Shown: positions 16,842 to 19,583 of the stretch, piece by piece | Numbering within the stretch: the first letter of the stretch is position 1 | Layout of the letters: each line of letters starts with the position of its first letter | Source of the DNA: an uncultured Bacteroidota bacterium | GTDB lineage: Bacteria > Bacteroidota > Bacteroidia > Chitinophagales > LD1 | Assembly: GCA_903919075.1 (NCBI GenBank) | Contig: CAIXGR010000017.1 | Span: 1 to 64,000 of the forward strand | Direction of reading: 5' to 3' | DNA length: 64,000 bases | Notes under the pieces: model-generated | Seen by the model: only the letters and a program-made list of their open reading frames with translations | What the model was told of the DNA's origin: nothing | The model's database searches: none | Position numbers and translations under genes: made by a program

Positions 16842-18722
16842 TTACCAGGTAAATACTATTTGACCGGTGCCTGATTGAACGCCCGCAGAGAAGCTTACAT
16901 TGGTCATAGCGTTTGATGCCCAAGAAGAGCCGCCCCCACCACCACCTGCCTGGCACTGTCCGTTGGCACCGCCCCCACCACCATAATAACCACCACCGCC
17001 CCCACCACCGGCATTGCTACCACTGCAGGCGCCATTCGGGCCATAAGAACCACCCTGACCGGCTGACCCGACTGACCCGTTGTTGCCATAGCCACCGGCT
17101 GAACCGCCCGCGCCACCACCTGTAAGTCCGCCGCCACCGCCGCCACCGGCAAATCCTCCATATCCATTTCCGCCCGCGCCACCGGCACCGCAAGTTCCGG
17201 CATAACCAGGGCCACTGTAATTTGTATTTTGATAAACGTAGGCCTGCCCTGCACCGCCACCGGCGCCATTTACACAAGCATCGCCACCACCACCTGTTCC
17301 ACCAATACCGTTTGAGGGAAAGCTTCCGCCCCCGCCCCCGGCAACAATTATTGCGTTAGAAAAACTTGTGCTTCCCTGGCGCACGTCAGACATATCGCCA
17401 CCGTTAGAACCACCGGCACCGGCGCCTCCGCCGTTAAAGTTACTTTGGCCGCCTACAAATACATACAGTAATGAACCGGGAGTTATATTTAATGTGCCCT
17501 GAGCCCTGCCGCCCAAACCACCACTATTTCCGCCCTGTGCGCCATATGCAGTAATGGTAATAGAACTTGCACAATTGGGCACGGTAAATGTTTGCATACT
17601 ACCTGTATAATTAAAAGTTTGGTTTCCGGAGGCGCCGTTTAAAGTAATTAATAAAGTGCTCGCAGAACTTGCGCCGCAAGTATTGCCCGCAGTAACACTA
17701 ATGTTGGCAGATGTAGAGCCAAAAGTTACGGTTATTGAATTGGTGCCCCCTCCTGCAGTGATAGTTGCATCGCCGGGGACGGACCAAGTATATGTAGTGG
17801 CCCCGCTTACAGAGCTTACAGAATAAACATTGCCAGAAGAATTAATACAAGCATTTTGGTTTCCGGAAATGGTACCGGGTGTAGCCGGACTACCACTTAC
17901 TGTGATGGCCTGCGAACTTGATGCACTGGAGCCGCAACTATTAACTGCTGTAACGCTGATGTTTCCAGAATCGGAGCCGAAGGATACGGTTATGGATGTA
18001 TTGCCGGCACCGGAAGCAATGCTTGCATCGGCGGGCACTGTCCAGTTATAAGTAGTGGCACCTGATACAGGGCTGATGGAATAAATATTGCCGGTGCTGT
18101 TGGCGCATACATTTGTGCTGCCGGTAATTGAACCGGGTGTCGCGGGAATAGGATTTACAGTCATGCTAATTGAATTGGATGTTGCCGGTGAACCGGTGAT
18201 GCATGCTTCGCTTGATGATAGAATGCAGGTTACTACATCGCCATTATTTAAGCCGGTGCTTGTATAGGTTGAACTGTTAGTGCCTACATTTTGTCCGTTT
18301 ACTTTCCATTGATAGTTTGGCGAGTTGATACCACCATTAGGCGTGGCGGTAAATGTTACACTGGCACCTGAACAAATTGCACCTGCCGGATTAGCTGAAA
18401 TACTAACACCGGCAATTAGTGCGTTGGATGAGTTTATGGTTACCCAATTAGGACTTGCAGTAGTACCGGCATTGAAATTAAACACACCGCAGTCGGTATT
18501 GAATATTGTTAGTCCGGTAGCAGGTTTAGCAATTGTGTTTCTTTGTGTTGTGGACATACGTGGTATTAGTATGCCTTTGTTGATAGAGCTAATATCAAAC
18601 AAGGCCGAACTATCGGGTGCAGCGCCGACGGAATTAACAGCTACGCCGCCTTGAGCGTTTGCGATAATAGCAGAACTCACAAAAAATATAATAAGTGTAG
18701 TGGTGTAGAATAATTGTTTCAT
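16842..18722 (-). CDS. Large glycine-rich surface protein with PKD-like repeats
   Basis: A 626-residue exported protein. Signal peptide to about residue 23 (IIANAQ). Residues 25-100 resemble a Bacteroidota surface-protein module (PDSSALFDISSINKGILIPR). Residues 100-190 are Ig-like. Two tandem PKD-like repeats of about 85 residues occupy 193-276 and 278-363. The rest, 366-626, is extremely glycine-rich and starts with the pattern of the Gly_rich family (TFTVPNCASSITITAYGAQG, LNITPGSLLYVFVGGQ), the domain also found in animal ALK/LTK receptors. The end GQIVFTW is not a T9SS type A sorting domain, so how it is held at the surface is unclear. The glycine codons make 16880-17600 locally GC-rich and create long antisense open frames that are not genes. 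Probable adhesin or matrix protein. Confidence 0.8.
   Translation of the reverse strand: MKQLFYTTTLIIFFVSSAIIANAQGGVAVNSVGAAPDSSALFDISSINKGILIPRMSTTQRNTIAKPATGLTIFNTDCGVFNFNAGTTASPNWVTINSSNALIAGVSISANPAGAICSGASVTFTATPNGGINSPNYQWKVNGQNVGTNSSTYTSTGLNNGDVVTCILSSSEACITGSPATSNSISMTVNPIPATPGSITGSTNVCANSTGNIYSISPVSGATTYNWTVPADASIASGAGNTSITVSFGSDSGNISVTAVNSCGSSASSSQAITVSGSPATPGTISGNQNACINSSGNVYSVSSVSGATTYTWSVPGDATITAGGGTNSITVTFGSTSANISVTAGNTCGASSASTLLITLNGASGNQTFNYTGSMQTFTVPNCASSITITAYGAQGGNSGGLGGRAQGTLNITPGSLLYVFVGGQSNFNGGGAGAGGSNGGDMSDVRQGSTSFSNAIIVAGGGGGSFPSNGIGGTGGGGDACVNGAGGGAGQAYVYQNTNYSGPGYAGTCGAGGAGGNGYGGFAGGGGGGGLTGGGAGGSAGGYGNNGSVGSAGQGGSYGPNGACSGSNAGGGGGGGYYGGGGGANGQCQAGGGGGGSSWASNAMTNVSFSAGVQSGTGQIVFTW
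17634..17891 (-). repeat. PKD-like repeat unit 2 of the glycine-rich protein
   Basis: Encodes residues 278-363. It shares with the neighbouring unit the frame ATPGxIxG-N-C-N-S-GN-YS-SGATTY-W-VP-DA-I, then SITVxFGS-ISVTA-N-CG. The two units are clearly homologous at the protein level but have diverged, so this is an old duplication. Confidence 0.75.
17895..18146 (-). repeat. PKD-like repeat unit 1 of the glycine-rich protein
   Basis: Encodes residues 193-276, in direct tandem with unit 2. Each unit has a pair of cysteines that could form a disulfide. Confidence 0.75.
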
Positions 18723-18860: not shown

Positions 18861-19583
18861 TCAGAAAATGGTAATGAAGCCCAATTGTATTACCCAATCG
18901 TGGGGATAGATGGAGTATGTATTGTTGGTTACGCTACTTAAAAGATTATAAGAAACCATTATAGGCAGAAAAAAATTTTTGCTTCGAAGTAGGTTATACC
19001 CACCACCTACAAGCAGCGCCGGAATTGTGGCGTGTATTTTTGGAATAAGTACCTGATAGGTGCCGTTTTGAGAGTTTATTTGTACAGTTACACTACCATA
19101 AGGGTCTTGCATGATTCGGTGAAGCACTTCGAACCGCGCACGCGCGAAAAACCCATTCCAGATATCGTATTGTACAAATGTTCCTGCGCCAAAAGTGTTC
19201 CACGATGCGTTAGCATAGTATGTTGCGCCAGAAGCCGGGTCGGTAAAAGCCAGGTGCCGCCAGCCGGTGTACAAATAAGTAAGGCCGCCGCCTACAGACA
19301 GGCCTTTCCAAACATTATAGCCTACATAAGGAGAAAAGCCAAGGTCTATTTCATTATCTGCTACATTGAAATAGAAGTCGGGTTCGATAATGAATTTTGA
19401 AAAATCGACTTTTTTAGATTTTTGAAAGCCCTGAAAATTATTTGGATCTTTAGAAGTAGCTGACGGCTGCTGTGTTGTTGGTTGGGGTTTGCTGGTAGGC
19501 GGAGGTAGCTCATCATCCTGCGCGAAAGCAATATTAGCTGCAAACGCAAATACTGATAATAAGAACAGGATTTTTTGAAGCAT
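18861..19583 (-). CDS. Putative outer-membrane beta-barrel protein
   Basis: A 240-residue exported protein of unknown role. Residues 1-21 are a signal peptide (FAANIAFAQ), followed by a Pro/Thr/Gln-rich linker (residues 22-45) and then alternating amphipathic strands typical of a small outer-membrane barrel: LGFSPYVGYNVWKGLSVGGG, FGAGTFVQYDIWNGFFARAR, ALLVGGGYNLL and a C-terminal strand WVIQLGFITIF ending in an aromatic residue, as outer-membrane proteins usually do. It lies in the same direction as, and 139 bases upstream of, the glycine-rich protein gene, so it might help to place that protein, but nothing in the sequence proves a link. No named family was recognised. Confidence 0.7.
   Translation of the reverse strand: MLQKILFLLSVFAFAANIAFAQDDELPPPTSKPQPTTQQPSATSKDPNNFQGFQKSKKVDFSKFIIEPDFYFNVADNEIDLGFSPYVGYNVWKGLSVGGGLTYLYTGWRHLAFTDPASGATYYANASWNTFGAGTFVQYDIWNGFFARARFEVLHRIMQDPYGSVTVQINSQNGTYQVLIPKIHATIPALLVGGGYNLLRSKNFFLPIMVSYNLLSSVTNNTYSIYPHDWVIQLGFITIF

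Follow-up and report, generated by a model that had tools for sequence, protein, structure and literature searches.

The tip protein gp24 of phage Pam3 joins a TNF-like part to a glycine-rich part, and its similarity to ALK has already been noted (PMC9608196); its glycine strands form a conserved stem, and its distal loops are hypervariable and have been proposed to bind receptors (PMC9608196). In Bdellovibrio, the 21 members of the MAT fibre family carry a constant N-terminal domain after the signal peptide and exchanged tips that recognise prey (PMC10769870). The PE_PGRS proteins of Mycobacterium tuberculosis form a large family within a single genome, again with a constant N terminus, and polyglycine II sandwiches have been proposed for their glycine-rich sequence (PMC7550000). 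The glycine-rich (TG) domain of ALK and LTK is described by the Pfam family PF12810 (ALK_LTK_GRD). Predicted viral proteins with a glycine-rich domain (GRD) of this type carry the database name 'receptor protein-tyrosine kinase' and many phages encode such domains, so the domain is already known in microbes, though misnamed. A search of a limited literature collection found no paper on PF12810 and none on tail-fibre-domain proteins of Bacteroidetes.

We analysed a window of 64,000 nucleotides from an uncultured Bacteroidota bacterium and found in it one gene of a family that resembles each of these systems in part. Fold and motif order are common to the ALK/LTK domain and the bacterial heads, but the bacterial family lacks any kinase, EGF-like or transmembrane part, and the window copy falls under the Pfam cut-off. 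As in the phage fibre tips Pam3 gp24 and Salmonella phage S16 gp38, a glycine-rich C-terminal tip sits on a beta-sandwich, and both Pam3, which the head model matches at VIA-align Z 9.3, and the family heads combine conserved glycine positions with variable loops; the family, however, is cellular, with a signal peptide and an Ig/PKD stalk, and no tail-fibre chaperone gene was seen beside the gene. As in the MAT family (PMC10769870), a constant domain follows the signal peptide, and a fibre and swapped C-terminal tips follow that domain; the C-terminal tips are exchanged among members with related stalks. The stalk of the GRD family is of Ig/PKD type, whereas that of MAT is a trimeric beta-prism, the tip is of ALK type, and none of 25 N-terminal modules matched the NCBIfam model Bdello_MAT_N (NF053851). 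PE_PGRS proteins, which we liken by description, differ in that their N terminus and export are unrelated and they are not known as ALK-type domains. Finally, T9SS type A cargo proteins with an internal GRD (L120, L062, L065) carry a homologous domain, some of them together with PKD_6, but end in TIGR04183, whereas the family of the window ends in the GRD. Such domains in phage fibres and Pfam, and chimeric fibres in Bdellovibrio, were thus already known; what is new here is the scale, the precise exchange of heads and the ALK-type head.

The window gene and its glycine-rich head

The gene is a complete open reading frame of 626 residues with an ATG start, as the sequence-only reading had stated, and can be divided into the following parts.

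16842–18722, minus strand: gene for a predicted fibre protein (N-module, Ig/PKD stalk, ALK-type GRD head), from the open reading frame listing and two Pfam PKD_6 matches
18654–18722, minus strand: predicted signal peptide, residues 1–23, with cleavage between AXA and Q, from the sequence
18432–18653, minus strand: N-terminal module (N-module), residues 24–97 (about 73 residues), from the sequence and profile searches
17628–18431, minus strand: stalk, residues 98–365, with one Ig-like and two PKD_6 domains, from Pfam and profile similarity to GhpA
16845–17627, minus strand: C-terminal head, residues 366–626, a predicted ALK/LTK-type GRD, from profiles, a model and a fold search
18861–19583: small barrel-like gene, conserved in the genus, without a Pfam or NCBIfam match

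The signal peptide (MKQLF...IIANA, then Q) is plain and without a lipobox cysteine, and complete paralogues begin with a similar signal. The product is secreted and probably displayed at the surface. The N-module has the consensus PDSSAlfDxxSxxKGxLxPRMTTxQRxxIxxPAxGL, and its family has no match in Pfam or NCBIfam; the NCBIfam search with the window protein as a whole returned no match of any kind. The presence of Ig/PKD-like repeats was confirmed by the two Pfam PKD_6 domains (E 1e-52, best at residues 279–358) and, in profile comparison, the stalk resembles Ig/PKD stretches in GhpA from Aureispira. The head was rightly described as glycine-rich: its 261 residues are 36% glycine, and it ends in GxGxIxFxW with the stop codon directly after. 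Because its DNA is barely repetitive and the same motif order recurs at 39 loci of the genome, the head is not chance low complexity.

Beside the gene lie the housekeeping genes uvrC, beta-glucosidase and fabH (names inferred from sequence) and the barrel-like gene. The latter had been suggested as a possible partner of the window protein, a proposal that did not hold up. It is conserved in congeners that lack GRD genes (present in 14 of the 15 congeners searched, some of them without GRD genes), and the genome has one other copy against 39 GRD loci. Of five congener loci that carry the barrel gene, none had fabH, beta-glucosidase or uvrC next to it, and none yielded a GRD gene.

A relationship of the C-terminal domain to ALK and LTK had also been proposed from the letters, and both profile and structure comparisons agree with it. 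A profile of 18 paralogues (A1) searched against the PDB matched the human ALK and LTK structures (E 3e-17), with an alignment that spans the whole domain and brings into register the QxFxVP...I.ayGAqGG start, a VG strand, IvAgGGGG, GGGGGGY.GG and the closing GxGxV strand. PF12810 scores 14 bits on the isolated window domain, against a cut-off of 24.5, and was not reported in the Pfam scan with the full-length window protein alone. It matches 19 of 33 paralogous domains (best E 5e-26) and, elsewhere in the genome, 17 places with an E value of at most 0.001, of which 16 lie above the cut-off.

An AlphaFold2 model of residues 366–626, computed with the window sequence and 26 domains related to it as input (pTM 0.76; the full-length protein modelled poorly, with pTM 0.44), predicts a TNF-like beta-sandwich with an inserted glycine-rich region: strands at 367–461 and 606–625 flank the glycine-rich part. 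The pLDDT of the sandwich is mostly 82–98 (one block of ten at 68), and that of the glycine-rich core, where a helix bundle is expected, is about 33–50. The interior of the model being of such low confidence, we infer the glycine-helix bundle from homology. In Foldseek, the first 21 matches of the model are all ALK/LTK chains (E 2e-7 to 4e-4) and the next is a cyanophage fibre (E 0.04); VIA-align gives Z scores of 15.8 for LTK (195 residues) and 15.5 for ALK, followed by two phage fibres, Pam3 at 9.3 and the Bxb1 tail tip at 8.2. As judged from profiles and the predicted model, the head and the ALK/LTK GRD are truly related, and the fold of the head is that of the domain with which ALK binds its ligand.

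An expanded family with exchanged heads

What the sequence-only reading missed is that the window protein is one member of a large head-shuffling family. Searches of its own genome with tblastn returned relatives across most of the genome, with up to 66% identity over the full length. With a head profile (A2), and after joining split hits, we counted 39 distinct GRD loci spread over 23 contigs of the 3.5-Mb assembly, the one genome of the species covered. The same profile gave 0–7 matches in 17 congeners (median 1) and none above 7 (0–7) in 60 relatives. Among 249 genomes of the order, no other genome had more than 6 strong GRD matches; that search scored just 11 candidates in the genome of the window, the figure of 39 being that of the A2 search. 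The N-module is likewise more abundant in this genome (49 matches) than in congeners (2–20). The family is therefore expanded in this lineage, with many more copies than in congeners. In the fetched stretches 37 members are complete, including four with a more distant glycine-rich head, and several further members end at contig edges. Two loci, L028 (G000:C51:10244-11815) and L037 (G000:C43:14833-15309), are frameshifted within the head and are either decaying genes or assembly errors. A separate gene of about 270 residues (G000:C47:64002-64679) consists of the GRD only; it has close counterparts in relatives (L108, L110, L111, L112) and is perhaps a conserved, ancestor-like member.

The N termini of the family fall into two related types (a and b) and one unrelated type (c, VQIDHPILLTG...), and these types do not follow the relationships of the heads. 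When 34 heads were placed in a maximum-likelihood tree, those that group with the window head at 99/96 came from all three types (L038, type a; L051, b; L024, c), as did those of another clade at 100/100 (L023, a; L025, b; L032, c). AU tests rejected trees in which all type c heads (p 2.5e-42) or all type b heads (p 1.1e-55) are kept in one group. For the N-terminal halves, the tree parts types a and b with strong support in all but one row, but has the two head types intermixed. Rank correlations of pairwise identities are 0.45 between N-module and stalk and 0.42 within the head, against 0.06–0.19 when the N-module or stalk is compared with the two main segments of the head and 0.13–0.26 when it is compared with the short C-terminal head segment. 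At the DNA level, identity in the best triple rises from a background of about 0.3–0.4 before the head to about 0.7 within its first 45 bases, and falls past the stop codon. The discordant trees, AU tests, identity correlations and sharp DNA boundary establish that domains have been exchanged between loci at a precise boundary and that the history of a head is not that of its N-terminal half.

Close head pairs have dN of about 0.16–0.32 and dS of 1.3–2.6, which shows purifying selection on the heads; the exchanges are not recent, given that dS exceeds 1.2 in these pairs. Recent gene conversion was rejected on the same grounds (dS above 1.2) and for want of near-identical pairs. Phase variation by homopolymer slippage was discarded as no family coding sequence contains a run of at least 8, and a shared promoter or invertible upstream region as upstream sequences differ and a palindrome is found in a few members only. 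An unsystematic look for silent head cassettes and a recombinase revealed none. The palindrome has a sequence of the GGAAATCAGGACACTTTCC type and precedes L039 (G000:C25:51642), L027 (C36:72672), L059 (C38:21854) and L051 (C82:35271) by a few tens of bases; other genomic GGAAA-N9-TTTCC sites lack the AGGA core, and the element is a possible shared operator or promoter. Within the heads, variability is 1.65 bits at strand positions, 1.14 at glycine positions and 2.01 at other loop positions, where gaps are also more frequent. The greater variability of the loops is consistent with, although no proof of, a role of the heads as recognition tips.

Export and the likely nature of the family

A missing T9SS sorting domain had been remarked on for the window protein, and Pfam and NCBIfam searches at E values up to 1 indeed gave no match to models of type A (TIGR04183/PF18962), type B (TIGR04131/PF13585) or type C (NF033708). 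The genome carries at least 150 Por_Secre_tail matches, 33 CHU_C matches (25 above the cut-off) and the SprA translocon, and a comparison of coordinates across this genome found no GRD or N-module frame that coincides with a Por_Secre_tail or CHU_C match. The absence is a property of the whole class and no oddity of the window gene, a further point that the sequence-only reading missed. In relatives, proteins with an internal GRD often end in TIGR04183 (L120, L062, L065, L113, L106). In L157, an N-module protein from a relative, a sorting domain scores below the threshold (20.2, cut-off 23), so that the exclusion of sorting domains is not absolute.

The ALK-type GRD family is most likely a varied set of recognition proteins built by exchange of tips and stalks. 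We consider it probable that its members are lineage-expanded, secreted modular fibres with exchangeable ALK-fold recognition heads; by analogy with Pam3 gp24 and the Bdellovibrio MAT fibres, from which the role as surface recognition fibres is taken, the best reading is a MAT-like fibre set with exchangeable ALK-fold tips. The N-module, following the signal peptide, would hold the fibre at the cell surface, the Ig/PKD-like stalk would project the protein outward and the head would serve as the recognition tip. Its glycine-rich strands may form a rigid stem from which the intervening variable loops would bind differing ligands, such as glycans or proteins on particles, phages, other cells or surfaces. 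By duplicating and exchanging heads, the species would then acquire a combinatorial repertoire of adhesins or recognition proteins.

A family of proteins without type A, B or C sorting domains, in a genome with at least 150 Por_Secre_tail matches, 25 CHU_C matches above the cut-off and SprA, could alternatively be structural, periplasmic or internal to the outer membrane, held inside it and without any role in recognition. We regard this as unlikely: the same GRD is joined to a type A sorting domain in the five relatives' proteins named above, which places it in predicted surface proteins, the family has the architecture of tail-fibre-like and collagen-like adhesins, and a periplasmic scaffold accounts poorly for the expansion and the variety of heads. 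It is far less probable still that the family represents accumulated prophage tail-fibre genes and not cellular proteins. The closest folds other than ALK are phage fibres, many phages encode such domains, and N-module-like modules adjoin tail-fibre chaperone-like ends; however, complete members have signal-peptide-like N termini and Ig/PKD stalks, no phage genes lie beside the window copy, which is flanked by uvrC, beta-glucosidase and fabH, and the loci are distributed over 23 contigs.

The terminal GRD might itself be a new sorting signal, with its last strand and C-terminal aromatic residue (GxGxVxIxW/Y) recognised by the export machinery of the outer membrane instead of a known T9SS sorting domain. 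Each of the 37 complete proteins in the genome ends in, or at most two residues from, an aromatic residue, and in relatives the last strand carries an aromatic in 20 of 21 terminal GRDs compared with 13 of the 29 that are internal (Fisher p 2e-4, from rows that are non-independent). Yet the strand belongs to the core of the domain and is aromatic in nearly half of the internal GRDs, the same ending occurs in L103, a protein on a viral contig, and N-module proteins with quite different ends are likewise without sorting domains; we judge this reading very unlikely. A bolder proposal, to which we give a slim chance, is that a GRD-tipped, species-specific combinatorial recognition repertoire, for example for recognition of kin or partners, reaches the surface across the outer membrane by a route not yet described, for which the N-module or the aromatic C-terminal strand, and no known T9SS sorting domain, would be the mark.

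If the tips of the recognition fibres that we favour bind different targets, one ALK-type scaffold is available in about 39 natural versions from a single small genome. This would offer a direct way to learn what the ALK fold, a receptor in animals, recognises elsewhere, and would mean that fibre-tip exchange, known from Bdellovibrio and phages, takes place at large scale in Bacteroidota. It also raises the question of the route by which fibres with a signal peptide and no known T9SS sorting domain exit a cell that owns a T9SS.

Other heads and stalks

The same N-module and Ig/PKD stalk occur in the paralogue L055:650-2344 (G000:C94:35150) with a Fibrinogen_C-like head, another animal-type recognition fold, and the paralogues L047:517-2046 and L029:1039-2418 have a common head that ends in HDEWARNG...PVVRCT(G/D)YE. 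As read from the sequence, some N-module proteins continue into collagen repeats and then beta-rich ends. N-module proteins of relatives have tail-fibre chaperone-like ends, with Peptidase_S74 confirmed for L157 only and the others recognised by eye. In congeners and in family members of other genera, the GRD lies at the C terminus of collagen-stalked fibres; L123, L117 and L124 are such collagen-stalked fibres ending in a GRD, and the N termini of these three and of L143, also collagen-stalked, match Bdello_MAT_N weakly (22–31 bits against a cut-off of 60). One protein from a Bacteroidota metagenome-assembled genome (L066), more than 3000 residues long, carries four GRDs in a single chain.
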